A stretch of DNA of 64,000 nt from Liolophura sinensis (lineage: Eukaryota; Mollusca; Polyplacophora; Chitonida; Chitonidae), in contig NC_088301.1 in NCBI RefSeq assembly GCF_032854445.1, positions 27,700,402 through 27,764,401 of the forward strand, written 5' to 3'. The notes below the pieces were generated by a model, which was not told the origin of the DNA, searched no databases, and was given only the letters and a program-made list of their open reading frames with translations. The translations under genes were made by a program, and so were the position numbers. This document shows positions 22,881 through 54,526 of this stretch, piece after piece. The stretch's first letter is position 1, and each line of letters begins with the position of its first letter.

Positions 22881-23876
22881 CATCATTTATGAATAAAATA
22901 TAAAAGGATTATGCAATAACTGTAGGATTGTGTACCATGGACGACGGCATTTTAAAGAAGTTGGCACCACATGGACAACAAATTACTCGGTACACTTATC
23001 TTTAAACGTTCTGCCCGAGACACAGTGAATTGATCCTTGGAAACAGTCTGTGCCAATAACTCAGTCTTCAGTCTTCAGTGGTGTAAAAGTAGCTTAGGCG
23101 TATGAGCTGTTTATAATATGAGTAACACAGTGTGCTGTTATTATTCCACAACTTTGCGCGTATGTAGAGATCAACAAGTCTACTAGAAAACACACGGAGT
23201 ACATCATATCCGGTGTAATCTGCATAAAGCTTACTACGATTTAGGAATATAACGTCAGTTTTCATAATGCCTTGTAATCCTTCGCCCTAACTATACAGGT
23301 GGGTATATATAGCTAAGTACATTTGACCAATAGGTATACAAATATGTGGACATGAGAACATATGACAGGTACACAATGGTCTGAATGGTTAGTGAACACG
23401 GCTGACCAGGCAGACGACAAACGTGGTCTTGGGAGGACAGTATACATACGAGGCAGCTGAACAAGCTTGAAGGAAAATGATCACTATTCATGATTGGTCA
23501 TACTGAAAACTGTTCTATATATTATTTCTGGTTGGAGAGGAAACGATCGCCAAAATTATTGCTAAGAACACATCATACCGAGAAGTGGTCATTCAACAAA
23601 GGTTAGTCATATTGAGAAGCGGTTGGCAAAAATCACCCTACACACGAAGTGGGTCCAGGAAGCGATATTCTTCAATTGATTACACAATGTTGAGAAGCGC
23701 CCCATTTCAAATGAACAAGCGATATCGTTAAGCAGATTCAACACTCTTTTGTCACATGTGATATTGTTATTCGTCCGTTGCATTTAAAGGCAAACAGAGC
23801 AGAAACAATCTTGCCTCCGACTGCGGACAAATAAATCGAAGTGAGGTGAGGCTAAAGTGGTTCAAAATATTCCAAA

Positions 23877-25835
23877 ATGGAGGACGGATTGAGCATCAAG
23901 ACTAAACTAAGTCTGATAAAAAACGAGCGCGAAGAGCGAGGTTTGAAGTCACGCGTGGAGAAGATCGAACTGGCGAAGTCTTTATGGGTGAGTAATTCTG
24001 ATCATAATCGGAATGTCTTTCTCCGTGATTACTCCCGCTTGATTTCGCGAGCTCAACTTCTATCCGGGGACTCCCGCATCGGCCGAACACAACACTGGAA
24101 CTCCGGTGTCGGTGGGTTGAAAGACGTCAAAAACAGACGTAGAATTAAACGCGACTTTCTCCCGCTATTGGCATACCAGGACAACTCTGAAAAATACCCG
24201 ACATCGGAAACGAAAGGCAGTGTTGAGAAACTGTGTGAAGAACCAGCGGAAACGCAAATCCAAGAAAGCAAGCGTGAAGAGGAGACATTGGAGACAGAGA
24301 ATGAATTGGCACGTGTCACTCCCCATACGCAATTGTTACTGGAAAATGGCGAAGAGGTTTCCGCAGTGGAGTCAAAAACCTGTCCTACTGTTGAGAAAGA
24401 TGGTTCTGAAAGTGAGTTGTTGCCTGGTAACCAAGGTTCAGAAATGGATCAGATCGGCACAATAAACTGCCACAGCGATAGTGATTCCACATTAGATGTC
24501 TGTTGTGACATCGATGGTGACACTATTGACAAAACGGAAAGTAAAGATGAAAGCAACGTAAGACACAAAGGTGACATCAACTTTGACAAATCTGCCCCAG
24601 ACGGCGGCATCGATGATGGCAACGACTGTGACAGAAATGATTCCGATGGTATCAAAGATGGCAAAGACTTTGATGAAACAGGTTCTCATGGGGGTGACAC
24701 CAAATATGAAACAGAGAATGACGAGAAAGAAGAGCACAATGCGTGTGACTTCAGTGTTGACGCCCAGAGCGATCAGATCATCGAGAATGTAAGAGAGAAC
24801 GAGTGTAGCATGGGCGGAGATGAGCGGAGCTTGCTCAGTGAAGGCAGGGAAAACAGTGGCGTTGACAGTGAGAAGAAGAGGGACAGCGAGGCCGACACTG
24901 ACGCCGAAAACGAGACGAGGAAAATGAGACGGTCGCCAAGTTTAGCCTTCATTACTGACCTTAAGCAGATCGAAGAGGAAGACGACGAGACCATGGCCTC
25001 AGAAAAGGAGGCCCCGATCAGCATTCCTCTAGCCATTCGCTCCGCCCAGACCCCTACCCGCCGTCGGGTTCAGTCCATACCATCTCTGTCCCCGATTAAA
25101 GATGAGGCAGAGGATCAGGAAGAAAAGAACAGCCAACCGGAAGTTGACGAGACAAAGCCCGTAGCAACAGAGGTGCCTATTCCTGAAACCGAACCGGAAG
25201 CAGAATTGAAAGAAATTGATCTGGAAGGCGAAGAGGATTCGGTGGATGAGTACATTGAACAGGTACGAATCTCGAACACATTACCGCCAAGCGAAAGAGC
25301 AGCAGAAAAGGTCGAACTCAGTCCGAAATCAGCATCACAATATCCACAAGGAGTAAAAGGCTGTAAACAAGTTACTCCAAGACTCACAAAGTCCTACACC
25401 TTCCAAAAGTCTACAAAAGACACACCAAGGAGGAATAGCTTGAGTGGTGGATTACTGATGGGAAGAAAGTCTGTGGGAAGTTTGGCTTACCTTGTATCTC
25501 GGCCCGCTGATGGTTCTGTGACAAGTAGATTTAAAGTGCAGCCTGTGTGTAAACGTTACGAACAAGCTGTAATTCCCACGGAGTTTAATCTCGATTTTAT
25601 CACCCGGATTCTTCGGAAGAAAGCCACCAAAAACAAAACAGACGAAGGTGACGACGAAGACGAAGAATATAACATCAGTGAGTTCACAACCGGAAAGAAA
25701 AAGAAAGTTAAACGACGAGTGGTCATCAGTCCCGCGAGACCTCGCGTGATTTGGACTCCGGCTAAGTGGTCCACCCTTCCGGAATGTAGATATCTGAGGC
25801 TCCCACCATTGGTGCAGATGGGGCATATGTTCTAG
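23877..25835 (+). CDS. Single-exon gene for a 652-residue acidic, low-complexity protein (family not recognised)
   Basis: This is the longest open frame in the window by far, opening at an ATG in good context (AAAATGG). Residues 1-110 are basic, with charged helical segments and an RRRIKRDFLP motif. Residues 110-480 are strongly acidic and rich in E, D, S, T and N, with an Asp/Gly/Asn-rich stretch around 235-275. Residues 500-560 are serine- and arginine-rich, with possible basophilic kinase sites (RRSPS, TPRRNSLSG). The last 80 residues go from an acidic patch through GKKKKVKRR to a conserved-looking tail, IWTPAKWSTLPECRYLRLPP. No signal peptide or membrane segment is seen, so a cytosolic or nuclear, largely disordered protein is likely. 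An AATAAA lies near 26319. The absence of introns is unusual among its neighbours and could reflect retroposition, or just one coding exon of a larger gene. Confidence 0.8.
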   Translation: MEDGLSIKTKLSLIKNEREERGLKSRVEKIELAKSLWVSNSDHNRNVFLRDYSRLISRAQLLSGDSRIGRTQHWNSGVGGLKDVKNRRRIKRDFLPLLAYQDNSEKYPTSETKGSVEKLCEEPAETQIQESKREEETLETENELARVTPHTQLLLENGEEVSAVESKTCPTVEKDGSESELLPGNQGSEMDQIGTINCHSDSDSTLDVCCDIDGDTIDKTESKDESNVRHKGDINFDKSAPDGGIDDGNDCDRNDSDGIKDGKDFDETGSHGGDTKYETENDEKEEHNACDFSVDAQSDQIIENVRENECSMGGDERSLLSEGRENSGVDSEKKRDSEADTDAENETRKMRRSPSLAFITDLKQIEEEDDETMASEKEAPISIPLAIRSAQTPTRRRVQSIPSLSPIKDEAEDQEEKNSQPEVDETKPVATEVPIPETEPEAELKEIDLEGEEDSVDEYIEQVRISNTLPPSERAAEKVELSPKSASQYPQGVKGCKQVTPRLTKSYTFQKSTKDTPRRNSLSGGLLMGRKSVGSLAYLVSRPADGSVTSRFKVQPVCKRYEQAVIPTEFNLDFITRILRKKATKNKTDEGDDEDEEYNISEFTTGKKKKVKRRVVISPARPRVIWTPAKWSTLPECRYLRLPPLVQMGHMF

Positions 25836-26907: not shown

Positions 26908-27178
26908 GTATTTATTTATTTATTTATTTGATTGGTGTTTTACGCCTTACTCAAGAATATTTCACTTATACGACGGCGGCCAGCATTATGGTGGGTGGAA
27001 ACCTGGTACAGCCGGGGGAAACCCACGACCATCCGCAGGTTGCTGTCAGACATTCCCACGTACGCCGGAGAAGAAGCCAGCATGAGCTGGACTTGAACTC
27101 ACAGCGACCGCATTGGTTAGAGGCTCCTGGGTCATTACGCTGCGCTAGCGCGTTAACCGACTGAGCCACGGAGGCCCC
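26908..27178 (-). mobile_element. SINE family A copy, full length
   Basis: Reversed: TATTTATTTATTTGATTGGT at the 3' end to GACTGAGCCACGGAGGCCCC at the head. Confidence 0.85.
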
Positions 27179-27941
27179 TGCGCCGAAGTAAGATTATCTC
27201 CATTCTTTCATGTGGGCGTGGCTACCTAGCAAGGTTAATTCTAGAACGGTCGATTACTCTCTAAGCTGTAGTCTTTTGACATTTTGCTCACGCAATAGAA
27301 ATGAGTGGAACGCAGGCTAAATCTAATGCTGGGCTTATACTCTGATACACTTTTGAATACACGTGGAAGAGCTAAGTTTAATGCGTAGGATCGTCAAAGT
27401 CAAAAAAAAAGGTTCAATTCCGGGCTAGGACAAGGATTTTCTGGAATGCCCCGCCATTAATGAAGGCCACTTGTCTCTCACCAAATCTTTTTCTCATGCA
27501 GCATATAGAAAAACACATTATTTTTCTAGCACTTTATTTTTATTTATTTTATTGTTTCTGAAGGCTGTATGTAGGGAATGTTCACTTATACGGTAGTGGT
27601 CAATTTTACAGGTAGCGGAAACCAGGGTTTATTCGCTTCATTTATAACACAAGTTTCTATTTTCTTTTTTTTTTTGGACATAAACTGACTACATAAGGTA
27701 AAACGATCGTCATAACGATCAAGAGGACAGTATCGAAAACTGATAGGTTAGGTGCGCATGAGCGTGCATATGCGCATCAGCCACAACGCTGTCCTCCACG
27801 TCCTAGCATATCAGAAGCCACATGTTACGTATCGATAATTACCAACTGTCACCGCCGTAAATACCCTAAAGGTGGAGAACCAAGGGATTGAGGGCACACC
27901 TGTGGAAGCGAACACATTAGTGTTTCGTATAACTGTACAGG

Positions 27942-28649: not shown

Positions 28650-28838
28650 ATGGTTCGAAAATCGCTTTTCTTCACCTGGATTTTTGCTATTTTGTCCCCC
28701 GTCCGATTACGCCAAATATTATCCCCGTGGAAAAGGTGCGAGAGATTGTTCAGTATGAAGAGAAATTAATATCTGCTTTAGGAAATTATATCCAAGAAGA
28801 GAATGAAAAGGAGCTGAAGTAGACGAAGCAATTCGAAG
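28650..28838 (+). CDS. P4HA-like (plus) exon 1, frame-broken
   Basis: The ATG at 28650 (context CCATGG) opens [17 protein letters not shown], a typical signal peptide. The homologous mature part, [19 protein letters not shown], is in another frame, so an indel lies near the C5 run at 28696-28700. A second break is needed before TAG 28820-28822 to reach EVDEAIR and the GTAAGT donor. An alternative in-frame ATG at 28640 gives a poor signal peptide. Confidence 0.6.
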
Positions 28839-31800
28839 GTAAGTAGTGAATATTTATACTGGAATATCAGGCTCCTAAATCTCAATGTACCTACTACCTT
28901 CACTAATAGGCATTTAGCGTGAATTTTTAAAATCGTTGTCCACTATTGTCCGCCAATTTTACTTCGTCACGGTAAATGTGAAAATTGTGTCAGGAGTTTC
29001 AACTGTTTCAGAACTTAATTAACAAATAACAATAATTAGGACAGGACTGTGTATCTGATTGTATAAGTTCACGTGTATAATTTATAAAACTGACGTTTCT
29101 GTGAACTGCGTGGTTAGATTTTTGAGCAAGGAATCAGTGTTAAAGTGAATTAATGAAATTGTAGGAATACAAATTAAAGTCAAAACGTAGATTATGAAAG
29201 ATTATTGAAACTGGTAAATTTAAATACGATAAAATAAAATTAAATGTAAAAAAAACAGGAGTTCATTACTTGAGAATGTTTTCACGCCAGTGTTGTTGTT
29301 GTTGTTGTTAATGTCAAATTGCCACAAATCGATAAAAGTATAACTTACTGACTTACACATTTTCCGTACGCGATATCTGTACATGGTGATAAGTTACACT
29401 TCAGTTAACACTGTTACTGCAATGATTTATTGCTGCAGTCTTCTGTTGCTTTGGTGGACTCCAGCTAGATCTAGGCGTCGGAACTGATAGAATGGACGGT
29501 TGGATTTATAGGCCCATTTAGCATGAAATGAGCAGAAATTTGCTTGAAGATAAAAAGACTTATTTTGATCGTGTTTCGAATGTAGGCTTATTCCTGTCTA
29601 GGTTTTGTAAATATATATCGGTGTAAATTTCAAATGGTGTTTAATTTCTTAATGAGAATCATGCACATGTATACTGTGGCTTTAAACAATTATGAAACGT
29701 AAGTCAAAGAATATTCTCTTAAAACTAAAAGTGTTTATTTGTGTTTTTAAGTGTTTGTCACTGTAAAGATCACGAGGAGTGACTGTAAGACTCACAGGGG
29801 GCCTCCGTGGGTCTGTGGTTAGCGCGCTAGCGCAGCGTAATGACCCAGGAACCTCTCACCCAATGCGGTCGCTGTGAGTCCAGCTCATGCTGGATTCCTC
29901 TCCGGCCGTACATGGGAAGGTCTGACAGCAACCTGCGGATGGTCGTTGGTCCCCCCACCCCCCGGGCTCTGCCCGGTTTCCTCCCACCATAATGCTGGCT
30001 GCCGTCGCATAAGTGAAATATTCTTGAGTACGGCGTAAAACAGCAATCAAATAAATAAATAAATAAGACTCACATGTGTCTGGCCAGTTTTATAAAGTGT
30101 TTTAACACTCATCAAAGGTGTTCCAGCTTCATAAAAAAGTGTTTTTACACTATGCTTCTAGTGTTGGTTTAAAATGTTGATCAACTGACTTTTAATGGAG
30201 TTTTAATGTGAACACTTTCGCGAGTGTTAAAGCATTAACACAATTTAAACGTACAGTCACTTCTCGTGATCCTAACAGTGTTAAAACTTTAGTTTTAAGT
30301 GAACAAACATGCATAGTTTATCAGTTAGTGATTAAAATCGTTGTTGTTGTTGTTGTTTACAGTTTCCACCTCACCGCTCAGGAAGAGAACCTGTCGTTCG
30401 AGCTGAATCCTGTGGACATCTTCCGCCTACATCGGCGAGTTGTGGACGACTGGGATCCAGTACTCGAGAAAGTCTTGTGTGACGACTGTGCGAAAAACAA
30501 CGGCACTGACGTAAGCACGGGTTATAAAACTGTTCCATGACATTCCAAGTGTTAGCATCCTTGTGAGATAGTCCTGACGTTCATTCAGTATAATTATCTA
30601 TAGCCCATAAGTAAATTAACTATCCCTCTTTCTCATTTCGTGGTAAAGGGTATACTGTCATACACAAAGTCAAACTTTCATAAATAATAATCTGTTTGAA
30701 AGTTGACCTGTATTAAAATACCTTTTGCGTTATCCATACCATTTTCGCAAGAATTTATTTTAGCAATAACAGCGATTCTTGCATATGGTCCTCTGTTTTG
30801 CAAATTGTAGGCTTCATGCATATCCCTTACAGCGCATGCACCGCTCCCTATGGTCGCTTTATATCTCTGCCACCACCAGTAAATCTTGCACAGAAATCTT
30901 GAACGACGCCGACATCATGGTGATGAGACAGCAAGTGATGTCAAAAAACACATAAGCCTTTGTTTGTAATAATACTTTAGTAATAAATCGTTTTGCACGA
31001 CATTTGTTAAACTTTACCAAACCACCGGCCCCCGATAGCATAGTTGGTAGAGTGTCCGCTTCGGAAGCAGTAGATCCATGATCAATCCTGGGTGGAGTCA
31101 CACCTAAGACCTTAAAAGAGGAAGTTGCAACTTCCTCGCTCGACGTTCAGCATGATGGCTCGGGTGGGGCTGATTACTTGCCTTCAGTAAGCCGTCTCCA
31201 GTGAAGCAGCACTAGATAAAAGAGCGGTGGAAATCCGTTCTACAAGAAGGAGGCACATTACATGCACTCTAAGGATTCCTTCGTCGTCATATGACTGAAA
31301 AATTGTTAATATATATATATATATATAATCGTCAAGTGAGACATTCATATACCATTCGTAGTCCGTTAAAAGGCGTTCCAAGTCGATAATCGCAAGATCC
31401 ATTTCCAAAACAACGTTTAACACTAACTCCCAAAGACAAAGGTGTGTAAGAAATTATACAAATAAGAAATAAAACCGGTAACACACAAAAGAGAAGTGGT
31501 CATCAGTTTTCAATGATGCCGGGCAGGCAATGAATATTCCAGGCATGAAATCCGGATCAAAGCTCAAATTCGTAGTCCGTACTTTTTTATGCACGACGTT
31601 ATACCCCAAGCATTCAATCACTCACTCACTTTACCAAGTTGAGGTAAACTTAAGGTAAAAGACTTATAAGTAAGATTGAACAACATTACAAGCACAAAAC
31701 TGGATTCAACCTGTTGCCAATATACAGAACATTGACCACAGATGGATCAAATTAGGTCTCAAATGACACTTCAGTGATAATATAAAATCTCCTTGCTCAA

Positions 31801-32762
31801 CATTTACAACAGTAGAAAAATATGTGCATGTACCGGGAAGCCCGGTGCAATGCCACTTTGAGTGAATTGTACTGACCTTGCCCTTGAAATCTTTGTTTGG
31901 ATTCAATATGCATTATGACATTGAAGTGCCATGAGCAGTTGGAGGTCAAACTGGTATTTTTCTATTAAACGTTTTTCTCTCTCTCAGCAAGAACATTTTG
32001 TAAAGGTTTTGCACGACATTTGTCCATCCAGAGATCCATGGAGAGATCGTGTGATGAGGTTTTTCAAAGGAGTTTCATCCACAAGTTCAAACGCCGTTTA
32101 ACCCCTGGTGATTCTTCGCTGACCTATACTTTCACGACTGCATGTGGGGCTGTATAGGCATGGAGCGACGTCAATCAGACAACTTCAGTGCGAAAATCAA
32201 TGTACGTGCACACACGTCTTCTCATCCCAGCACAAGTTAACAACCTAGAAATACGCCATTATCATCGCAAAAAAAGTGGTGACTGAATTTTCATAAATGT
32301 TATTCTCTGTGTACAGATGTTGAAAGAGCCCTGTACAGGTGTCAGCGTCGGACGATGTGGCCGCGTGAGAGTGACGTCTCAGATGCGGCTATGGCGCTTT
32401 GTCAGATTGTCACGTGTGTACAAGCTTGACACCGATGACGTCATCAGCGGACACCTGGCTGACACAACTACGGGCTCACTCACGTTAGATGACATCCTTA
32501 CATCGCAGACGTTGCAACTGACAACGGATTCCATTATGAAGCTGTACAGTGGCTCAAATCCGGAATAGCAAAGGCCAAAGAGTCCATGGCAGATGAGGCC
32601 ACAGTCATCAAATTGTACAGAGAACTGGCAGGTGCATATTACCAGGTATGATCAGTATTTCCACGTGCAAAAGAATTGTAAAATATATTGTTAACAAAAT
32701 ACTAAACTGCAAACACGTGTTACAATCAAAAACTATAAGACAAATGCTGTAAATTTACCATA

Positions 32763-32819
<57 letters not shown>

Positions 32820-35800
32820 ATATCCTGAAGTTTTAACAGTTTAAACTGTAACAAAGCACACGGTATGAAACATTTCACTATAAAGACTGTGCTGCAGCAG
32901 AAGATGTTAAAATGTAGAAATATACTCTTAGCTTAAACGATAAACTGTTAACATGAAAACTGTGGGGAATCGAAAAATGTGAACAATGTAATTACCAGAA
33001 TGAAATCAACACACTAAAAATAAACAGGAGTATCTCCTTTAGCAAACTTTGACAGACTGAAGTTAATTTTATATATGGTATACAAATAAATTGTTCGGAA
33101 ACCCTCAGAATTAAAATAAGTATCATTTACAAGAAATAACGGTGAGTCAGGAAGTGTGTCGACATACATGACAGTGTTATTACTATAAGACCCTGTTCTG
33201 CGCACCACACAGTAGATATCCTCTAAGTATTAATGTATTTCACGAAGCCTCATCATGTTGACAACATTATCATGTTGAATCCCTTCAACAACATCACTCA
33301 ACCATCAATGCAATGGGATTCTGTTGTATACGACTGTGATCTATGGTAATACAATTAAAATGTCATTATTTTTGGCTGAAGTGTCATCTTTCTTAAACCG
33401 TTCTTCATTCTTGAACCGTTCGCCATTCTTTATTTTGTTCTGTTTTTTTTTTTGTTTTTTTCAGGTCCAAATGCCATCCGAATCTGTGAAATTGCTTCAG
33501 GAATGCTCCGCTTTATGTAAGTACAATTGCTGTTGCTGTGCTCTAGGGCCGATTTAACACCAAAGTTTGGATCACTTGAGAATGTTATGCGGGGCCTCCG
33601 TGGCTCAGTTGGTTAGTGCGCTGAGGCAGCGTAATGACCCAGAAGTCTGCCACCAATGCGGTCGCTGTGAGCTCATGCTGGCTTCCTCTCCGGCCGTACG
33701 TGGGAAGGTCTTACAGCAACCTGCGGATGGTTGTGGGTTTTCCCCGGGCTGTGGCCGGTTTCCTCCCACCATAATGCTGGCGCCGACGTATAAGTGAAAT
33801 ATTCTTGAGTAAGGCGTAAAACACCAATCAGATAAATAAATAAATAAATAAATAAAATGTTATGCTAAGACAAATTTGAATTTCTTGGGAATTAGGCTGT
33901 GTTTGTGGAGTAGATTCCCGACGCCAAATGCACATTGCCATTTCTGATTTTTTTTAATGTTTTTCAATTTAAAACTCGCAAACACTGCCTATTTATTAAA
34001 ACGATTGTCTTAAGATTACATTGTTCAGGAGGTCAAAATATTTTTTCATAGGGTCCAAAAATAAGTTCTAATGAAGTATTTCAGTTTATGACAGAAGCCA
34101 AAAAATGGCTTCTTGGCATGAGACCCAGGTCCTGAAACTTTGTAAAGACTCACATTAGTGTGGGGTAGGGTATAAATTAATAGCGCTACGGTCCAACTGG
34201 CAGGCAGTATATATTTTGTGGTCTGTAAGTTTACGCTCTAAACATGGTCGCCCTATTCCCTGATAAATTTGATTTATTCATTTGAGATTGTCGATATTTA
34301 TGTACGCATGCTTTTAGAAGGCACGCATGCTCCATACTTTTCGGAAATAAAAAACAAAAATCATTTTTATGTATACCAATATAATTGACAGTAAAATGCT
34401 CACATGATGTTACCAAATGGCTATATTTATGTTTTGCACGTGATCACTAGATCCTGAAAGTAAGTCTGTGAAACGAGAACTTCAGTATTACAAAGAAAGA
34501 AAGGAAGATGCAACGAAGACGGGGGAGAACTCTAAGCTTGCACCTCGCGTTTTAGGGAAGGCTGTGACTGCTTGTGAACAGCTATGTCGAGGAGAAAGTC
34601 AGGTTGGTAGAAATAAAGGACTGCATGGTGTTTAAACTCAAGAAAATTACCGAGTTAGGTGCACGTGATAGAGGGGTGGGGTGCTAAGGTTCAAACAGCG
34701 TTGTGACGTATGGCCCCACACTACTTCACCTTCCTTATCGTAGCGAGTCAAGTATAGCATTATGCCTGGTCCAGGCTTTTTAATTAATAAAATGTATGCG
34801 GGAGATGGGGTGGATTCAATCAGTGGGAAGGGAACGGGTTATGACCGAGTGATTACCTTCCAGATCACCTATAGGTCACACCAGACAGGGGTTCAATGCC
34901 ATTCTCGCGCACGGATACCTACATGCTTCTTTTGGGAATTGATGGCAATTAGTGGTCAACGGTGATCTCGTGTGTGATCTTGCATGAAGCTTACCTCCGC
35001 TTGCCATCCACTGGTGCGACATAGCTCACACGTGAAAAAGTTTGTCAGTCTAACTTCCCTACGGTGGGTTTACTTCGGATCTCTGGTTTCTTCCACCAGC
35101 CAGGATTTCTGATTTCTTCAACCCATAATACACTGGTCGCGATCGAATAAGTAAAAACTTCTTGATTGAGGCACTGAATTCAAACAAATAAATATATTAG
35201 TCAAGGGGCATCTGATCTATTTATCTGATTGGTGTTTTACGCCGTACTCAAGAATATTTCACTTATACGACGGCGGCTAGCATTATGGTGGGTGGAAACC
35301 GGGCAGAGCCTGGAGGAAACGCACGACCATCCGCAGGCTGCTGGCAGACCTTCCCACGTGCGGCCAGAGAGGAAGCCAGCATGAGCTGGACTTGAACTCA
35401 CAGCGACCGCATTGGTGAGAGGCTCCTGGGTCATTGCGGCCGGAGAGGAGGGACATCTTCTGGTGAATCTTGCTAAACTCCCGCTTATATAGTGAGTGGT
35501 ATAATCAAGCAAGCCAAGTATGGAGATGAAGGTATAGACGGCCTTATTAGCGCAATGATGTTAAGCCGTTCACATAGTCCTGTGAAACCATTAACAGTAT
35601 GTCGTCATTCACAAAGAGCATACTAATGCTTCCATATACAACATGTATTTCCTATAAAACTACCGACACCGATAGCACAGTTGGTGAAGCGTTCGCTTCC
35701 GGAGACTGTAGATCCAAGATCAGTCCTGGATCACTCCTAAGAAGTTGTAACTTCCTGGCTTGGCGTTCAACATTAAGGGGATAATGCAACGACTGGTTGA

Positions 35801-36606
35801 CCCGTATCAATATAATGGTTCGGACAGAGCGGCTTACTTGCCTTCAGTAAGTCTTTTCAGTGAGGCAGCACTAGATAAAAGAGCGGTGGAAATCCGTCCT
35901 GCAACAAGGAGGCACATGAGATGCACTCTAAGGATTACTTCGTCGTCACATGACTGAAAAATTGTTAAGTATGACGTTAAACCACAAACACTCACTCACT
36001 CACTCCTATAAAACTATCTATATACACCGCATCTATGTACAGGACATCATATACAGCTTACCAAATAACTTTCAATATGGTCGTCCTGCTGCTCTTTAAA
36101 ACCTACTGTACCTCACTTTACAAACTTGCCCATCCACCAGCAGCATACAACTTTATGTAGAATATCCACCATGACGCTTACATCACACGATTCATTGTGG
36201 ATGTGAATAATTGCAATAATCATTTTTCATAAAAGATATAGACCTATCCATTTTAGACCGTGCAAGTGGCTAACCAATATGGACATGCGTTTTGGAGATC
36301 AGTTCTTTTTGGCTCGACATTCCGCTTGATGGGGATATAATAAATAAACATGCGTATATTGTTTAAGTGACTGGTATCATCTTGTGTTCTATGTTTTTTG
36401 TTGTCCTATACCCAGTCCCAGAGGACACGTCCCCTATTTTGTCGTCTAAGGGCCACTGACTCCCCTTTTACGGTGATTAAAGAAGAAATACTGAGCTGGA
36501 AGCCACGGATCGTCATGGTCCACGATGTGTTAAGCCCACAACAAACAGAATATTTTGGAAATATTTCCTCAGATACGGTAAGTCTTGAAGGCTTCCATAT
36601 ATTGTA

Positions 36607-36677
<71 letters not shown>

Positions 36678-36760
36678 AAGAAATAGAGAAAGATCCCCTG
36701 GTGGAGAATTTACATAGGAACAAAAATAATAAAACGCCCTTTTTTAAGAAGGCGTTTTAT

Positions 36761-36856
<96 letters not shown>

Positions 36857-39800
36857 GCGTGTGTATTCATATTGTATGTACTTTCATATTGTATTCATAT
36901 TGTATACACTTTCCAGTATAGTTCATCAAACAGTTCACAAGATTTAAATGAACGAAAGCATACATACCTGAATCAACGACATTCTTTTTAAGAATATTTA
37001 GTATTATTCTGCACTGAATTCATATTCAACTTTATCGTGGATTTTCCATTTTTGGCCTCTTTTTGTGCAACGAAGCCTGGATTTATTTGTAGGTCGAACG
37101 ATCTGGGAGACTGGCATGGGCAAAAGAAACTACCGTCTCCAAAACAAGGTATGTTTGGTTATTTAAATTATTGGTCAATGTGTTGATAAACGCATTAAAA
37201 GTTCCTTAAAATTTTTGGAGATATACAAGCAAATGAAGGTATAGCAGAACTCGGCGGGAAAGCCACAACCATCCGTAGGTTGCTACCAGACTTTCCCAGT
37301 ACGATCCGAGAGAAAGCCAGCATGAGCTGGACTTGAACTCAGAACTCATTGGTGAGAGGCTTCTGGGTCATTACGCCGTGCTGGTACGCTAACCACTCGG
37401 CCATTGATTTATTTATTTATTTGATTGGTGTTTTACGCCGTACTCAAGAATATTTCACTTATACGACGGCGGCCAGCATTATGGTGGGTGGAAACCAGGC
37501 ACAGCTCGGGGGAAACCCACGACCATCCGCAGGTTGCTGGCAGACCTTCCAACTTACGGCCGGAGAGGAAGCCAGCATGAGCTGGACTTGAACTCACAGC
37601 GACCGCATTGGTGAGAGGCTCCTGGGTCCTCGGCCAATGAGACCTCAGTTTTACTAGTGCGTTATACCCTTTCGTAGTAGGGTAGGGAACAGGTGGTGTG
37701 GACATCTATCTCTTGGCACCGACCTGAATAATTGCTGAAAGTGGATTGAGTAGAAAATATATTTGTTTATTTATTTGATTGGTGTTTTACGCCTTACTCA
37801 AGAATATTTCACTTTTACGACGGCGGCCAGCATTATGGTCGGAGAAAACCGGGCAGAGCCCGGGGGAAACCCACTAGCATCCGCAGGTTGCTGGAAGACC
37901 TTCCCATGTAGCCTACGGCCGGAGAGGAAGTCAGCATGAACTGGACTTGAACTCACAACGACCGCATTGGTGAGAGACTCCTGGGTCATTACGCTGTGCT
38001 GTCGAGCTAACCAACTGAGCCACGGAGGCCCCTGAGTAGGAAATATATGATCTGTTGTTGAATGATTCAGTAAATATATAATATACAGCAGAATAAGAGG
38101 GGTCAAAGTGAATTTCTGTGAGGCATGCCTTCGATTATACACATGCAGCAACGCTCCACTCATACAGACACTCTGGCACCATACACTAAGATAAAATCAT
38201 TTAAACGTAATGTTCATATTGGGGGATCACATGAAGCTGGAACTTCTGTTGTCCTTTATCTTAAGCTGAGATTCCATATACGCGGTATGCGGTTTGCGGT
38301 ATACGGCACGCGGTACTCGGATACAGCATGCGGTATGCGCTTTCTCTGATTCCATTTATGCGGTAACCTATGCGTTTTCTTTCATTCATGGTGCGTTTTT
38401 ATCAGAGCAAACATGTCGCATTCCTCCATTTCACGACGTGTGGCTTTAGAGCAAGATTCAGACCTTGCCATAATAGCAATGTCATATAAGTTGTTGCAAC
38501 TAAAGAAGCGTAAAAAGAGAAAACACCGATGGTGGGTCCACAGTATTTTGCGGCAAAGAGCTCAGCAGGGAGCTTTCCATAACTTGGTCTCGGAATTGCA
38601 GCTGGATGGAGAAAAATTCCAACAGTACTTTCGTCTAACCAGAGAACAATTTAAACAAGTTCCGACCGCGTGTCGGGGAAACACCCCACCAGTGACGTCA
38701 TTTCTTGGGATACCCTGTCCGATTTTGAAAACGCATACCGCACCGATCGCTACATGGTGCGATTGATTTTGCCGTATACGTTTCCGCATGAAAAAACGGA
38801 TCCGCGACCGTACCTATGGAATCATTGCAACTTATTTTAACTATTTCGATTTTTTGCCGCGTACCGTATACCGCTACCGCATGTAAGGAATCTCAGCTTT
38901 ATACCTATATCTTTACCTATATCTCCTTTATAGGTTTTAAATTCCACAATTGTATTACATGTTAAGCTCACGTACATAATTAACAGGCTCTGTACAAGTC
39001 AAACAGATACTCATCCACTATAGAATATACGGATTTAATTAAGTGTTTAGTTTTCTTTAGGTGTAAGTTTAAATAAGCTGTATTTCAGACTTTTTTTTAC
39101 ACAAAATTGTAATTTTTTGTTATTTATTTCAGAAAAAACAGGTACGAATTGGACGAAATAAGAACCAGCCTCGTAGACAAAATAATGAACGTGACTGCAC
39201 TGACCAGTAAACGTTATTTACAGGTAACCACATTATCGTGTGTTATTGTTCTCAGGGTCTCATTATTTTTGATATTTTGGGTGTGTTGTTTTCTGATTTG
39301 GTTTTATTTTACCGCCAGAAGCCAGAAACAGTTGTCTTACTCATATTGTTATGCCATCAAAATACACTGCCAGTCTTCAGCCTCCTGAGAAAATTACAGC
39401 AAGCAAACTTATTATTGCTTATATCAAATGGTACAACTTATTATTGCTTATAACAAATGGTACAACTTATTATGGCTAATAACAAATGGTACAACTTATT
39501 ATGGCTAATAACAAATGGTGCAACTTATTATGACTAATAACAAATGGTACAACTTATTATGGCTAATAACAAATGGTACAACTTATTATGGCTAATAACA
39601 AATGGTGCAACTTATTATGGCTAATAACAAATGGTGCAACTTATTATTGCTAATAACAAATTGTACAGTGGTATTTGGTAATAAATGGACCATATTGGAC
39701 CAGTCAAGATTGTATAGATGTGTGATACATTAGGCAGGTTAAAACCATATGTTCTTCTACATATAGCTCCCAGCTTTGCATTCACGTAATAAGGTAAACG

Positions 39801-41056
39801 TTATAGAGCTAGGGAGAAAATATATAGGCCTAGTATGTTGATAAGGTTCATTTTACAATCTTAAGGTGTAAAGCCCTGGTAGCGAAACTCAACAAGGATG
39901 ATGCAACGTATATTAGGAACATATTCCAATGTATGGAAAAAAATTTCTTGCCCAAAATAAAATGTTTATGTTTTTCTTTTCTTTGCTGACAGGCTGTCAA
40001 TTGGGGCCTCGGCGAAAACATGAAAGTGAAAAAACTTGTAAGTACTGTATCTACATATGTATATATACATGTAATGTCTTGTATACCAGACTGAAAAATT
40101 GTTGAGCACGACGTTAAACCCCAAACAATCACTCACTCACTCTCGCATACTGAAAGATGCGTGGTAGATCCACGGTCAATCCTGGGTCGGGGTCACACCC
40201 AAAACCTTAAAAAAAGAGGAAGTTGTAACGCTCTCGCTTGGCGTTCGCTTGAATAGTGCAACGACTGATTGACCCATATCAATATAATGACTCGGGCGGG
40301 GCGGCTTACATGCCTTCGGTAAAAGCACTCGATAAAAGAGCAGTGGAAATCCGTCCTGCAACAAGGAGGCACATCACATGCACTCTAAGGACTCCTTCGT
40401 CGTCATATGACTGAAAAACGACGTTAAACCCCAATCACTCACTCACTTTCTCACTCACTCATCTTCAGATCTTACAATATATCACGGCTTCGGGCGATGG
40501 TGTCATTATAATACATATACAAGAGCCTTATCCACAGTATCAACGGTCCTAATTTGGTGAGAATATACGTAAACTGTGATAATATATTTTGTGACACTTC
40601 TGAGGGGTCAAGTGATACATGATTTATAAGACAAGTAATAACACATCCTACAAGACTATATTTTCTTTTATTTATTTCCAACAGAGAAGCAATTTGGATA
40701 CCTACAACGAAATCGAATACGCTAAGAGATTTTATCAATTCCCAATTGCAAAATGGATGTATTTTGTGAGTATAGGCGTCTCCATATCCATTCATATTCA
40801 GAATTATTCAGAGTTTTGTAGTGTGCAGTGAACGTTCTAAATACAGCGTAGAACTGTAATCTTGTTTTGATGATTTCCATCAATGAGTAAAATGCATTCA
40901 TGCTTTACATGTGAATTTAAAAGAAAACTAGCTCTCACCACTTCAGGGGCTCATGTGGGCTTGCCATCGGCTGAAAACGTGGGAAGATAGACTCAAGTGT
41001 TGCTTTAAAATATTTAAGCAGTTTGCCAAGGATGTATTAAGACTCCAGTGCTCATT

Positions 41057-41090
<34 letters not shown>

Positions 41091-43484
41091 GATTGGTGTT
41101 TTACGCCGTACTCAAGAATATTTCACTTATACGACGGCGGCCAGCATTATGGTGGGTGGAAACCGGGCAGAGCCCGGGGGAAACCCACGACCATCCGCAG
41201 GTTGCTGGAAGACCTTCCCACGTACGGCCGGAGAGGAAGCCAGCATAAGCTGGTCTTGAACTCACAGCGACCGCATTGGTGAGAGGCTTCTGGGTCACTA
41301 CGCTGCGCTAGCGCGCTAACCGACTGAGCCACGGAGGCCCCTGCTCATTTTGAATAAATGTACATAATTTTTGTTATGTCTCGGTTCATATCTAAAGATT
41401 ATAAATTTTTGATTTGATTTATTTATCTGATTGGTGTTTTACGCCGTGCTCAAGAATATTTCACTTACACGACGGCAGCCGGAGGAAACCGGGCAGAACC
41501 CGGAGGGGGGGGGGGGGGAACCCACGACCATCCGCAGGTTGCTGTAAGACCCCCCCACTTACGGCCGGAGAAAGATTATACATGTGTGTGGCTTTAAGTG
41601 CGAATATGCATGTCTATATTGAGCATTAGAAAGTAGTCGTTCAAAACATGTTGTGTATGAATCAAATAATTTCTCTTTCAGCTCAGTGATATCACAGGTG
41701 GAGACATAGTGTTTCCAGATTTAAACCTGAAGGTTCCGTCCATAAAGGTACGAGTCTATAGGTGACAAAAACTTGAACCCAAGTAAAACACAAGGAGTTT
41801 ATATTGCATTATACTGTGTATAGTCAGGGTCATATCTAGATGAAATTGAAGGTCCAAATCCCAGACTGTAAAGGTAACATTCCTCTAACAGACCTCTAAA
41901 AATCGAAGCAGGTATCACTAAATAGACCACTTAAAACTATGCATAAACATAGTATCATTGATTTTTTTAGATTTTTGTGAAGAGTTAAAGCGCTCAAACA
42001 TTTGAATTCTAAGGTGGGCTTTATGTACCATACTATCAGAGGTTAGGAACTCTGACGTTTTTCAACTCTAACAACCAGACTGAATGTTAGAATAACTCTA
42101 CAAATGAGTGAAAGATTACTAAATAGTGTTCCCAGAAATTCCTTCATTCTTGTGAACATCAGGAAAAAAAGGTGATGTGACGAGATAACGTCAGTACGGC
42201 TCATAAAACCTACCATAGTTTTCAAATATTTGAATGCCTTTCAACACTTAAAAAATCTGAAAAAAAAAATAAATGAAAGTATTTTTACGCATAGTTTTCA
42301 GTTGTCTGTATGATGGACCTTACTTCATATTTTAGTTTTCTTTTACTTTCATCATCACCATGACTACCAGGAGTAATTATTTGTGTATAACAGCTTCTTA
42401 ATATATTAACTCGATGTTTCGATGCGGATGGTTGCTTAGTTATAAAGGGATCGCCGTAAGGTATCCATAAGTAACAGCTCTTTTCTTTTGCTTATCGCCT
42501 GGTCCGAATTCTAAAGGCCAATGTAAGCAGTCATTTCACCCGTTATGGTAAATGAGAGAAATTATACTTCCGTGAGAGGGCAGACGGGAAATTGTGATGT
42601 TGACTTCGAGGGGTTTTTTTTGTTTTTTTTTACACTTTGTATTTCTTGGTTCTTGTGTGTTCTCATCACCGTACGGCCGAAATACTGCGTTAAACCCAGT
42701 CATTTGTTCTTTCTTTCACATTTTATAGGGCAGTGCAGTTTATTGGTACAACTTGAAACCAAACGGAGACCCAGAAACCAGAACGAAGCACTGCATATGC
42801 CCAACTCTTCTCGGATCCCCCTGGGGTGAGTGTAGATGTATTTGAAAAGCATACCTGTTGAAACTACATGGGCCTCTGTTGAGCTTACCATTGATTTTAC
42901 CCCAGCATGTGCCAGTTACTTGGTCCATGACCCATGGTGGTTTAGCCAAGCTTGGCTATATACAGGTAGTTTGCAACTTTCACCATGCACCCATATCCCG
43001 TATATACAACAACTAACGAATACCAACAAGGCGAAAAAAGTTTCACTAAAAAATTAATATGAAAGTGCCAAAGTGATTTATACCCGATGTTTTCATTTAA
43101 AAGCGCACACTTTTGATTTATTAATTTATTTGATTGGTGTTTTACGCCGTGCTCAAGAATATTTCACTTATAAGACGGCGGCCAGCAAGATGTTCTTGAG
43201 AACCCAAGCCCACTATATTCTACCCTCGGCAAAGCTATATAACCATCTGTCAAGAAAATAAGACAATAATGTATGTACATATATAATAACGAAGAACTGG
43301 TGTTTAACTGGAAAGAAAAATTATATTTTATATTTCACTTAAATGAAGAAATTTTCATGACTTTCGTTTAAATCATAAATCCTTCGTTTTCTTTCTTGCA
43401 GTTTCGCCAATGAACCTGTTCGTTCCAAACAAGCTTGAAACAACATTTTGCGGACTCAACAGAAAATCAGCATATTCTTTATGA
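28650..43484 (+). CDS. P4HA-like paralogue, catalytic residues lost; 5' exons carry frame breaks (possible pseudogene)
   Basis: This is a second P4HA-family gene with the same 13-exon layout as the minus-strand copy. Exons: 28650-28838, 30363-30510, 32317-32645, 33465-33516, 34451-34602, 36416-36577, 37093-37148, 39133-39223, 39993-40037, 40685-40765, 41682-41747, 42729-42825, 43402-43484. Exons 4 to 13 are open and join in phase. The HYD motif is replaced by VKK, and the 2-oxoglutarate Lys (SKW) by Pro (SPW); the distal His (KHCICP) remains. It therefore cannot be a normal hydroxylase. Exons 1 to 3 need several one-base corrections: after the signal peptide, before the TAG at 28820, at the exon 2/3 junction, at 32398-32400 and at 32498-32499. 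Either the gene is decaying from its 5' end, or this stretch holds indel errors, mostly at homopolymers. An AATAAA lies at 43720. Confidence 0.8.
29797..30066 (+). mobile_element. SINE family A copy, full length
   Basis: GGGGGCCTCCGTGGGTCTGT head to CAATCAAATAAATAAATAAA tail. It lies in the intron between exons 1 and 2 of the plus-strand gene. Confidence 0.85.
30363..30510 (+). CDS. P4HA-like (plus) exon 2
   Basis: Acceptor TTTACAG. The frame gives [19 protein letters not shown], parallel to NPINSYHLARRM of the sister gene, then [13 protein letters not shown] and donor GTAAGC. The frame runs out in phase 0 while exon 3 requires phase 1. Confidence 0.75.
31028..31312 (+). mobile_element. SINE family B copy with tRNA-like head
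   Basis: The head reads CCCCCGATAGCATAGTTGGT, then AGAGTGTCCGCTTCGG and a B-box-like GATCAATCC. The body and 3' end follow the family and run into a short (TA)n. It lies in the intron between exons 2 and 3 of the plus-strand P4HA-like gene. Confidence 0.8.
31592..31632 (+). repeat. SINE family B tail fragment
   Basis: GCACGACGTTATACCCCAAG, then CACTCACTCACT, equals the terminal 40 bases of family B without head or body. Confidence 0.6.
32317..32645 (+). CDS. P4HA-like (plus) exon 3, two frame breaks
   Basis: This exon is 329 bp; the sister exon is 327. Its three segments lie in three frames: [31 protein letters not shown]; and [19 protein letters not shown] to AGAYYQ. Removing one T from 32398-32400 and adding one T at 32498-32499 joins them into one match to the sister exon. 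Donor GTATGA. Confidence 0.7.
32768..32816. repeat. (TA)n microsatellite
   Basis: About 24 TA units in the intron after exon 3 of the plus-strand gene. The flanks ACAATATATAT and ATACAATATAT are related. Confidence 0.95.
33465..33516 (+). CDS. P4HA-like (plus) exon 4
   Basis: A 52-bp exon, [17 protein letters not shown], after a long T-rich tract and TTTCAG. Donor GTAAGT. Size and phase equal the sister exon. Confidence 0.75.
33591..33856 (+). mobile_element. SINE family A copy, full length
   Basis: Head GGGGCCTCCGTGGCTCAGTT, tail AAACACCAATCAGATAAATA. It begins 75 bases after exon 4 of the plus-strand gene. Confidence 0.85.
34451..34602 (+). CDS. P4HA-like (plus) exon 5
   Basis: Reads [19 protein letters not shown], matching P-D-N-K-A-L-K-R of the family, and ends [11 protein letters not shown]. 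Acceptor CACTAG, donor GTTGGT, phase 0 out. Confidence 0.8.
34835..35196 (+). mobile_element. SINE family C (third, decayed family)
   Basis: tRNA-like head with GGTTATGACCGAGTG and B-box-like GGGTTCAATGCC. The body has CACACGTGAAAAAGTTTGTC and the tail has CTGGTCGCGATCGAATAAG, then ACAAATAAATA. Related pieces lie near 44790 and 58185. Confidence 0.6.
35215..35438 (-). mobile_element. SINE family A, head truncated
   Basis: Reversed copy from ATCTGATTGGTGTTTTACGC to GAGAGGCTCCTGGGTCATTG, where it stops before the A box. Confidence 0.8.
35664..35998 (+). mobile_element. SINE family B copy, full length
   Basis: The head reads ACCGATAGCACAGTTGGTGA. The body matches the other copies and the tail is GACGTTAAACCACAAACACT, then CACTCACTCACT. 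It is intronic. Confidence 0.8.
36416..36577 (+). CDS. P4HA-like (plus) exon 6
   Basis: Contains [19 protein letters not shown], parallel to KEEILSLDPRI in the sister gene. A second in-frame acceptor AG lies 6 bases into this exon, so the exact start is uncertain by two codons. Donor GTAAGT. A long (TA)n tract begins 30 bases downstream. Confidence 0.8.
36606..36850. repeat. Two (TA)n tracts flanking a 90-bp spacer with a perfect hairpin
   Basis: TA runs at 36606-36674 and about 36764-36850. The spacer contains 16-bp perfect inverted arms (36723-36738, 36751-36766; AAAATAATAAAACGCC and its complement) around a 12-base loop. It is intronic, 30 bases after exon 6. Confidence 0.85.
37093..37148 (+). 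CDS. P4HA-like (plus) exon 7
   Basis: Reads [18 protein letters not shown], equivalent to the sister's LSRSVVIGQEI segment but one residue shorter. Acceptor TTGTAG, donor GTATGT, phase 2. Confidence 0.65.
37250..37406 (-). mobile_element. SINE family A 5' portion
   Basis: Reversed central and head part, lacking the 3' end. The next family A copy starts immediately after it. Confidence 0.7.
37407..37630 (-). mobile_element. SINE family A, head truncated
   Basis: Reversed copy from GATTTATTTATTTATTTGAT to GAGAGGCTCCTGGGTCCT. Confidence 0.8.
37761..38032 (-). mobile_element. SINE family A copy, full length
   Basis: Reversed copy from TTGTTTATTTATTTGATTGG to CAACTGAGCCACGGAGGCCC. It is the third family A insertion within 800 bases. 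Confidence 0.85.
38264..38898 (+). mobile_element. Internally deleted PIF/Harbinger DNA transposon
   Basis: The 635-bp element begins AGCTGAGATTCC and ends GGAATCTCAGCT. Its subterminal regions are rich in GCGGTATACGG-like repeats. It is flanked on both sides by TTA (38261-38263 and 38899-38901), the 3-bp target duplication typical of PIF/Harbinger. It holds the start of a transposase frame. It lies in the intron between exons 7 and 8 of the plus-strand P4HA-like gene. Confidence 0.85.
38413..38766 (+). pseudogene. Truncated Harbinger (HARBI1-like) transposase fragment
   Basis: The 117-codon frame contains [20 protein letters not shown], then [23 protein letters not shown]. This is the recognisable N-terminal segment of HARBI1-type nucleases (W-V-H-x-I ... 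G-x-F-H-N-L-V-x-E-L ... Y-F-R-L-x-x-E-Q-F). The catalytic DDE domain is absent. After about residue 84 the frame runs into sequence belonging to the right terminal region, so the element has an internal deletion and cannot encode an active enzyme. Confidence 0.75.
39133..39223 (+). CDS. P4HA-like (plus) exon 8
   Basis: Reads [20 protein letters not shown], then [10 protein letters not shown], parallel to ISRVTHRVELITGM ... EELQ. Acceptor TTTCAG, donor GTAACC, phase 0 out. Confidence 0.7.
39409..39668. repeat. Minisatellite, 29-bp unit x about 9
   Basis: The unit has the form TTATTATGGCTAATAAC + AAATGGTACAAC, with few changes (GGTGCAAC, TGACTAAT). It lies in the intron between exons 8 and 9 of the plus-strand gene. 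Confidence 0.9.
39993..40037 (+). CDS. P4HA-like (plus) exon 9: HxD motif replaced
   Basis: A 45-bp exon reading [15 protein letters not shown]. It lines up with VLNYGIGGMYEPHYDFF, but the His and Asp iron ligands are gone and two residues are missing. Acceptor GACAG and donor GTAAGT are intact. Confidence 0.78.
40084..40462 (+). mobile_element. SINE family B: tail fragment followed by a nearly complete copy
   Basis: A tail piece (ATTGTTGAGCACGACGTTAA, then CCCCAAACAATCACTCACTC) at 40093-40142 precedes a copy from about 40150 that ends in a second tail at 40417-40462. It lies in the intron after exon 9 of the plus-strand gene. Confidence 0.75.
40685..40765 (+). CDS. P4HA-like (plus) exon 10
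   Basis: An 81-bp phase 0-0 exon ending FPIAKWMYF, corresponding to the family's N-R-I-A-T-W-L-F-Y. Acceptor CAACAG, donor GTGAGT. Confidence 0.75.
41067..41341 (-). mobile_element. SINE family A copy with homopolymer tail
   Basis: Full reversed copy. Its 3' end is followed by about 24 T (plus strand) instead of the usual AAATAAA repeats. Confidence 0.85.
41413..41573 (-). mobile_element. SINE family A, 5' truncated
   Basis: Reversed 3' part containing a run of 14 G at about 41505. It stops in the ACGGCCGGAG block. Confidence 0.75.
41682..41747 (+). CDS. P4HA-like (plus) exon 11
   Basis: Reads [20 protein letters not shown], parallel to LNDVKAGGATVFPEV. Acceptor TTTCAG, donor GTACGA. Confidence 0.85.
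41865..42310. mobile_element. Dispersed fold-back element, copy 1
   Basis: The two halves are diverged inverted repeats: AAAACTATGCATAAA near the start and TTTACGCATAGTTTT at the end, with further pairing inward (TCAAACATTTGAA / TTCAAATATTTGAA). A second copy, inverted, is at 55545-55985. No coding frame is seen. Confidence 0.65.
42729..42825 (+). CDS. P4HA-like (plus) exon 12: distal His kept, 2-oxoglutarate Lys lost
   Basis: Reads [19 protein letters not shown], then [13 protein letters not shown]. It is 97 bp, exactly like the sister exon. The distal His is kept but the Lys of SKW is Pro. Donor GTGAGT. Confidence 0.88.
43116..43193 (-). mobile_element. SINE family A 3' fragment
   Basis: Only the last 75 bases (GATTGGTGTTTTACGCCGTG, then ACGGCGGCCAGCA) remain. 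Confidence 0.75.
43402..43484 (+). CDS. P4HA-like (plus) last exon
   Basis: Begins [20 protein letters not shown] and ends AYSL, then TGA. It is 83 bp, as in the sister gene, and shares its Cys-Gly-Leu near the end. Acceptor TTGCAG. AATAAA lies about 235 bases after the stop. Confidence 0.82.
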
Positions 43485-43719: not shown

Positions 43720-43725
43720 AATAAA
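43720..43725 (+). promoter_or_regulatory. Polyadenylation signal of plus-strand P4HA-like gene
   Basis: AATAAA about 235 bases after the stop codon, the first such hexamer downstream. Confidence 0.55.
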
Positions 43726-52171: not shown

Positions 52172-53774
52172 AAATATCATATTTATATAATACCATTCAT
52201 AAAATAATATTCATAACTTCTCATTTATCGAAAGATTTGGTTCTGAAATTGTAACTTAAATCTAGATCATCTCTGTATGACAACTAACGTCACATGGTGA
52301 CCTGCAGGGTGCAAGGAGCAGTGATTTTGAATATCATACTAAACGAAATATTCAACTTCAGGCTTTTAACGCCAGCAATTCACCTCAAAACTTATTTACT
52401 GGTTTTACTAATCTTAATGGAACTTGGAGAATGCAACGAAATAGTGTCTGCCTTGTTTCAAAGGGCTTGATTTTGGTTCTGTTATGAACTTAGGCGTGAT
52501 GTTGAATGAAATGGTCACAATGGGAGAAAATTACAGTGTTCAATGTGGCAAATAGAATGGACAGTATCTAAGAATAATATTGAGGTACATCAGTTGCAGA
52601 CCAGTTCATACACTGTTTGGGGCTCTGCAAAGTATTAAGTTTAGTTTGTAGGTGTTAAATTTTTTTTTGAAAATCTGATACTGAGGCATGTTGCTGTCGT
52701 GGACGGTTGAACTTAGGTTTGTGAGGACAATACTTTATTTTAGGCGTACAGCCTCAAGCCCTTCATTTCCTTTCACCACCTTTGCTATTTTTCACATATC
52801 ATAAAGATAATTAGTATGCCTATCCAGTGGCCAAAAAACTTGGTTACCAAGAAACTTCTGTCACAGTGTAGTAAGTGATGGCTAGCCTGTACTTTTTTCC
52901 CCCCCACTGCAACAGACAATAGAAGTAGTCCAGTATACATCTATAAAGTATCCCACATGAATTTTAAAAAAAAATAACTGTCTACCTTTATGATGTTCTA
53001 TAACCAACATATCGCAGTCCAAATTAAGCAAAATCGGACACATTGAGGAAATCAAAAGAGACACCCTGTTTCTGCGGCACAAGTTAACTCCACAACCAAA
53101 GAACGCAGCTGTTCCTGCTTGTCTCACCCAAACTCTTGTTTGCCTTTTAATTCATATGTACTTGGGGTACAACTAACCCCACATTGTGTTAACGGTCTTT
53201 AATATCGTGCTCACTATGGCCCCATAATGAGTTCCAGATTTAATTTATTGCGTTACAAAGGACATGAGATGAAAAGATTGTTGTTTAAGTCTGTTGCCTC
53301 TCCTCTTTCTGAATAACTAAAGTTAGAGTATTTGTTGTTGCTTCTTTCAAGTATATTCACACTCATTCACACACAAAAGCTTGTGACCAAAAAAAAAAAC
53401 CAGATGGAGAAAAATTTAGAAGCATTTAAACAAAGGACTCTTTTGACTGTAAAACCCAGAGCTATGACCTACAGTTCCTTCACAGATGAAGCACATCATT
53501 CCAGTTATATGTAAATTTTCTTTAAAAAAAAAACATATATGGAATGATTTGTGAGGTATTGAGATTTGAAAACTTACATATTATTCCAATGCATAGGTTG
53601 TAATGTTTGACGTCATCCGTGTGTTTTTTGGTCATTAAACAGTGCAAATGGTTTGCCATGGGCAATAGTACGGAGATGAAGTGTACCGTGTGCACAAGTT
53701 TGAATTGCAGGCTAATATCTAGGTGCCAAATTACAACCAGAATTTCTTGGAAGGTTGTGAGACTATTCATGTTC

Positions 53775-54526
53775 ACACACTAAAAGACATTGTTGAGTAC
53801 GACGTAAAACCTCAAGCACTTACTCACTCACTCACTCACACACTAAAAGACATTGTTGAGTACGACTTAAAACCCCAAGCACTTACTCACTCACTCACTC
53901 ACACACTAAAAGACATTGTTGAGTACGACGTAAAACCCCAAGCACTTACTCACTCACTCACACACTAAAAGACATTGTTGAGTACGACGTAAAACCCCAA
54001 GCACTTACTCACTCACTCACTCACACACTAAAAGACATTGTTGAGTACGACGTAAAACCCCAAGCACTTACTCACTCACTCACACACTAAAAGACATTGT
54101 TGAGTACGACGTAAAACCCCAAGCACTTACTCACTCACTCACACACTAAAAGACATTGTTGAGTACGACGTAAAACCCCAAGCACTTACTCACTCACTCA
54201 CTCACACACTAAAAGACATTGTTGAGTACGACGTAAAACCCCAAGCACTTACTCACTCACTCACTCACACACTAAAAGACATTGTTGAGTACGACGTAAA
54301 ACCCAAGCACTTACTCACTCACTCACACACTAAAAGACATTGTTGAGTACGACGTAAAACCCCAAGCACTTACTCACTCACTCACACACTAAAAGACATT
54401 GTTGAGTACGACGTAAAACCCCAAGCACTTACTCACTCACTCACACACTAAAAGACATTGTTGAGTACGACGTAAAACCCCAAGCACTTACTCACTCACT
54501 CACTCACACACTAAAAGACAAAGCAC
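53775..54526. repeat. Satellite array of 12 full copies, about 58-62 bp, derived from SINE family B tail
   Basis: Each unit reads ACACTAAAAGACATTGTTGA, then GTACGACGTAAAACCCCAAG and CACTTACTCACTCACTCA. The units are nearly identical; length varies with the number of CACT steps. The middle matches the family B 3' end (TTGTTGAGCACGACGTTAAA, then CCCCAAAC ... CACTCACT). A thirteenth copy is cut at ACTAAAAGACA. Open frames across it are by-products. Confidence 0.95.

Follow-up and report, generated by a model that had tools for sequence, protein, structure and literature searches.

On balance, the right-hand of two collagen prolyl 4-hydroxylase alpha (P4HA)-like genes in the 64,000-nt stretch of DNA analyzed here (the window) is probably an old P4HA-like paralogue that turned into a pseudoenzyme and whose 5′ half was broken later. 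Pseudoenzymes are a known kind of protein, and the right copy has what marks one, a homologous fold (predicted by homology only) from which catalytic residues have been lost; the gene looks like a once-useful non-enzyme and may be dying.

Two Divergent P4HA-Like Genes

The window is eukaryotic DNA in which introns are large and repeats are interspersed; to judge by its repeats it looks like that of a marine invertebrate, possibly a mollusc. Its two P4HA-like genes are divergently oriented, the left copy at 20332–8511 (−) and the right copy at 28650–43484 (+). Both have 13 exons, and all 24 introns are bounded by GT-AG (the left exon 5 donor was shifted by 8 bases so that the phases fit). For the right copy this agrees with the intact splice sites reported in the initial annotation (12 of 12 introns) and rules out a processed pseudogene. 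Exons 4–13 of the right copy align with the left copy at E=5e-36 and with human P4HA2 (7zsc) at E=1.9e-21, so its similarity to P4HA is not a matter of chance, and by sequence homology the right gene is a P4HA-like paralogue of the left gene. The two differ in that the left protein matches the Pfam family 2OG-FeII_Oxy_3 (2.7e-14), whereas for the spliced right protein Pfam gives no match at a threshold as loose as E≤1. Six motif scans of the window for further P4HA copies, with the best 12 matches taken from each, gave clear matches to the left and right copies only. Left exon 2 (18667–18494, −) contains one frame change, so that in the assembly even the catalytically complete left gene is disrupted.

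Relatives of the right copy were sought in viral contigs (3 pattern matches) and prokaryote contigs (42 pattern matches), both outside the kingdom to which an animal gene belongs, and none of these matches was confirmed by tblastn. The window also contains an unbroken, acidic open reading frame (ORF) of 659 residues (23856–25835, +), for which Pfam gives no family at E≤1.

Loss of the Active Site in the Right Copy

Active-site residues were identified by aligning both copies with human P4HA2, whose numbering is used here; the roles of these residues and of the cysteines discussed below follow PMC9676403. All seven are kept in the left copy, whereas the right copy keeps one, the distal His501. 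Left exon 9 (12569–12519, −) reads VLNYGIGGMYEPHYDFF, and right exon 9 (39993–40037, +), which is two codons shorter, has MKVKKL aligned there, in place of the HxD region; left exon 12 reads ...RTLHAGCPVLLGSKW, and right exon 12 (42729–42825, +) has GSPW where the left copy has GSKW. The replacements are Y421 to W, Y427 to M, H430 to K, T467 to I and K511 to P, with D432 lost. The Fe(II) ligand set His-X-Asp...His is reduced to His501, and the 2-oxoglutarate residues Tyr421, Thr467 and Lys511 are replaced by Trp, Ile and Pro. Loss of the HxD ligands and of the 2-oxoglutarate Lys had been read from the DNA in the initial annotation, together with retention of the distal His and of the WYNL and GGD-VFP motifs, and the exon translations bear out both statements; the losses at Tyr421, Tyr427 and Thr467 come in addition. 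At the Ile324 contact position, the right copy has Phe and the left copy Val in the alignment. According to PMC2767507, any alteration of the 2-His-1-Asp set is not tolerated by P4H, so hydroxylation by the right copy is not expected.

One way around this loss, already raised in the initial annotation, would be an unseen exon supplying HxD to the right copy. This was ruled out for the window by a six-frame BLOSUM scan, in which the best 12 matches included only left exon 9 (score 93.5) as an HxD exon; the next best match scored 29.5 and is without HxD.

The remainder of the right catalytic half (all on the + strand) can be followed exon by exon. Exon 4 (33465–33516) encodes the last TPR helix, exon 5 (34451–34602) a linker with the Cys294 equivalent in LCRGE, and exon 6 (36416–36577) the N extension of the catalytic domain, with the Cys311 equivalent in LFCR; exons 7 (37093–37148), 8 (39133–39223) and 10 (40685–40765) flank the altered exon 9. 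Exon 11 (41682–41747) carries GGD-VFP and the Ile at the Thr467 equivalent, exon 12 carries WYNL, the His501 and Cys504 equivalents and the Pro at the Lys511 equivalent, and exon 13 (43402–43484) ends the frame with a stop codon and keeps the Cys529 equivalent; the next AATAAA on the 3′ side lies at 43720.

All four cysteines (294, 311, 504 and 529) are therefore present in the right copy. According to PMC9676403, Cys294 and Cys504 form an internal bridge, and Cys311 and Cys529 form bridges to protein disulfide isomerase (PDI). Among the other columns common to the left copy and P4HA2, the right copy keeps 44/97 (49/108 when all common columns are counted). Active-site loss differs from cysteine retention at P=0.015 (Fisher) and from retention at all other shared columns at P=0.09, and the cysteines differ from the other columns at P=0.048; the contrast between loss at the active site and retention elsewhere is suggestive at the sequence level, not strong, and weak against the other shared columns.

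Past Selection on Exons 4–13

Right exons 4–13 form 294 open codons with no stop and no frame change, and they match the left copy at 82/272 residues (30% identity). Identity between the copies is 47%, 57% and 29% at codon positions 1, 2 and 3, respectively, indicating that third positions are saturated and that first and second positions were held; between the copies, synonymous change has reached saturation. In neutral simulations started from the left sequence (300 runs), divergence to the same identity produced 11.4 stops on average and never fewer than 4, and at half the divergence the mean was still 7.8, with 0 of 300 runs free of stops. The reading frame of right exons 4–13 was under long-term selection in the past. 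Relative to the left copy, the lengths of exons 4–13 differ by 0, 3, 3, −3, −24, −6, 0, −3, 0 and 0 bases; 4 of the 10 are equal and 6 differ, always by a multiple of three, a likeness between the copies that counts for less because the right splice sites were picked partly by phase, which biases it upward.

These data bear on whether the right copy is simply a dead pseudogene, its active site lost by relaxed or neutral change with nothing ever gained. The frame changes of right exons 1 and 3, the lack of a Pfam match and the retention of only 49 of the 108 columns common to P4HA2 and the left copy speak for this reading; yet 294 codons at 30% identity without a stop or frame change argue against it, as does the state of the active site, and we regard this reading as unlikely. 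The absence of any lesion from exons 4–13 limits unconstrained divergence there to about 1.6–2.7% (95%, depending on the assumed indel ratio), at which only 0.28–0.45 of the seven active-site codons would be expected to have changed, as against the six that are gone; the probability of at least six of seven changing at that divergence is at most 4e-7 (exact sum), which implies that the catalytic residues went before any release, while the frame was still held. The history of the right copy is most likely that of a pseudoenzyme, to judge from these sequence comparisons, with the active site lost under continuing selection on the frame. Counting against this preferred history are the low retention at the other shared columns, below one half, and the want of a Pfam family for the spliced protein.

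A 5′ Half Broken as Assembled

Right exons 1–3 present a different picture. Exon 1 (28650–28838, +) contains a signal-peptide-like start and the start of P4Ha_N but is divided by two frame changes into three frames, comprising a signal-like peptide, a P4Ha_N-like helix and the terminal part leading into exon 2. Exon 2 (30363–30510, +) is open and P4Ha_N-like, and its end phase misfits exon 3. Exon 3 (32317–32645, +) covers the end of P4Ha_N and most of the peptide-binding TPR domain; it has in-frame stops and two frame changes, and its three pieces (frames 2, 0 and 2) are collinear with left exon 3. The P4Ha_N scores of the pieces from exons 1, 2 and 3 (E=0.013, 0.0028 and 0.094, respectively) are weak and all below the Pfam cut-off. 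Given the frame changes and the phase mismatch between exons 2 and 3, no full-length right subunit can be made as assembled, and no signal peptide is followed by N-terminal and peptide-binding domains in an open frame. In the spliced message, the longest frame reaching exon 4 opens within exon 3, where its first Met lies at 32586, and no signal peptide was seen in it by eye.

The initial annotation had missed these breaks. Its proposal of a pseudoenzyme in place of simple decay stands as far as the catalytic domain is concerned, which was kept as a reading frame although dead by sequence (open where neutral runs gave at least 4 stops, with every bridge cysteine retained). Its suggestion of a partner or peptide-binding subunit is not supported for a full-length protein working at present, as the frames of exons 1–3, which would encode the signal peptide, the dimerization domain and most of the peptide-binding domain, are broken in the assembly.

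Disabling changes are present in exons 1 and 3 and absent from exons 4–13, and assembly error is a possible source of them. A living full-length pseudoenzyme, its exon 1 and exon 3 frame changes being assembly errors, would fit with the single frame change in the left copy, whose active site is complete and which allows for such error, and with the right-hand pieces aligning in order to the left copy, as they would after indel errors. The errors would need to cluster, however: four frame changes in 666 bases are improbable at the rate found elsewhere in the window (P=5e-5, with a background of ~1 per 3.5 kb taken from the left gene and the 659-residue ORF), which argues against scattered assembly error, though not against a local bad patch, and the 659-residue ORF runs unbroken over about 1980 bases. 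We consider a living full-length protein rather unlikely, and favor a pseudoenzyme whose 5′ half was broken after its active site was lost.

A Candidate Start in Intron 3

The position of the lesions raises a further reading, in which the 3′ half alone is alive and a new start allows exons 4–13 to be expressed as a PDI-docking protein made up of the catalytic domain only. All four right-copy frame changes fall inside exons 1–3 (P=0.034; P=0.015 for all five of both copies), and the 95% lower bound on neutral divergence in exons 1–3 (1.7–5.1%, depending on the indel ratio) exceeds the upper bound for exons 4–13 at every indel ratio tried; these bounds are barely apart and depend on the assumed ratios, however, and the single frame change of the left copy likewise lies in exons 1–3. 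A speculative alternative start is the ATG at 33360 in intron 3, from which a hydrophobic extension of 35 residues (33360–33464, +; mean hydropathy 1.99) runs in frame into exon 4. Met extensions upstream of the exon occur at 5 of the 24 acceptors of both genes, and this one is the longest; against that, it merely ranks first of 24, consists largely of polypyrimidine tract and holds an 18-base tandem repeat of the intron (33390–33430), and it may be a chance product. The human CAT domain without its N and PSB domains forms a stable, soluble heterodimer with PDI that has low activity, according to PMC9676403, so that a fragment encoded by right exons 4–13 could in principle dock PDI. Taken together, survival of the 3′ half alone seems very improbable, and it is equally doubtful that a putative dead CAT pseudo-subunit, led by an ER signal-like start in intron 3, occupies PDI and competes with active P4HA.

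Proposed History and Relation to Known P4HA Proteins

We hypothesize that the right copy began as an old P4HA-like paralogue and became a pseudoenzyme while its reading frame was still selected. The Fe(II) ligands His430 and Asp432 and the 2-oxoglutarate and substrate residues would have been lost with the then-selected frame kept; the double-stranded beta-helix (DSBH) core and the four cysteines that would brace the catalytic domain and dock it to PDI by disulfides were retained. From this pattern we infer that the former product was likely an alpha-like subunit of the ER that bound PDI without hydroxylating, and which may have modulated active alpha subunits or procollagen binding. The 5′ half would have broken in a later step, after which the right copy either died recently or lives on as its 3′ half alone.

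Human P4HA2 resembles the right copy in its CAT domain, in the N extension specific to P4HA, which contains LCRGE and LFCR, and in its four bridge cysteines, and differs from it in its active site (six of seven residues replaced in the right copy) and in the frame-broken exons 1–3. A second point of comparison is Drosophila CG34041, a P4HA-related gene without a catalytic domain according to PMC12340787, which counts 26 P4HA-related genes in the fly; CG34041 is, like the right copy, a non-enzymatic member of a P4HA-related family, but it has no CAT domain and keeps its N domains, whereas the right copy keeps a dead CAT domain behind a broken N half. In the accessible text of the open-access literature searched, we found no example of a P4HA pseudoenzyme whose CAT domain is dead, an absence of limited reach.

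Should relatives keep the right copy, a dead, PDI-docking alpha-like subunit would offer a non-catalytic means of tuning collagen hydroxylation; if it is merely a dying gene, it is ordinary. Dead members of P4HA-like families may escape domain-level annotation, as the blank Pfam result for the right copy illustrates.

Repeats and Other Features of the Window

Several introns of the right gene contain repetitive sequence. A stretch of intron 7 (38264–38900, +) is bounded by short inverted sequences (GCTGAGATTCC / GGAATCTCAGC) and includes an ORF of 138 residues that is reminiscent of a PIF/Harbinger transposon but has no Pfam match. Intron 8 contains a 29-base tandem repeat (39406–39667; 9 copies, 95% matches). 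Beyond the gene, a 59-base tandem array of about 12 copies lies at 53773–54520, with a unit similar to the tail of a repeat that is dispersed elsewhere in the window. A tRNA-like dispersed element (GGCCTCCGTGGCTCAG...), probably a SINE family, was seen by eye in many copies on both strands (such as 41090–41340, 26920–27180 and 37420–37620).
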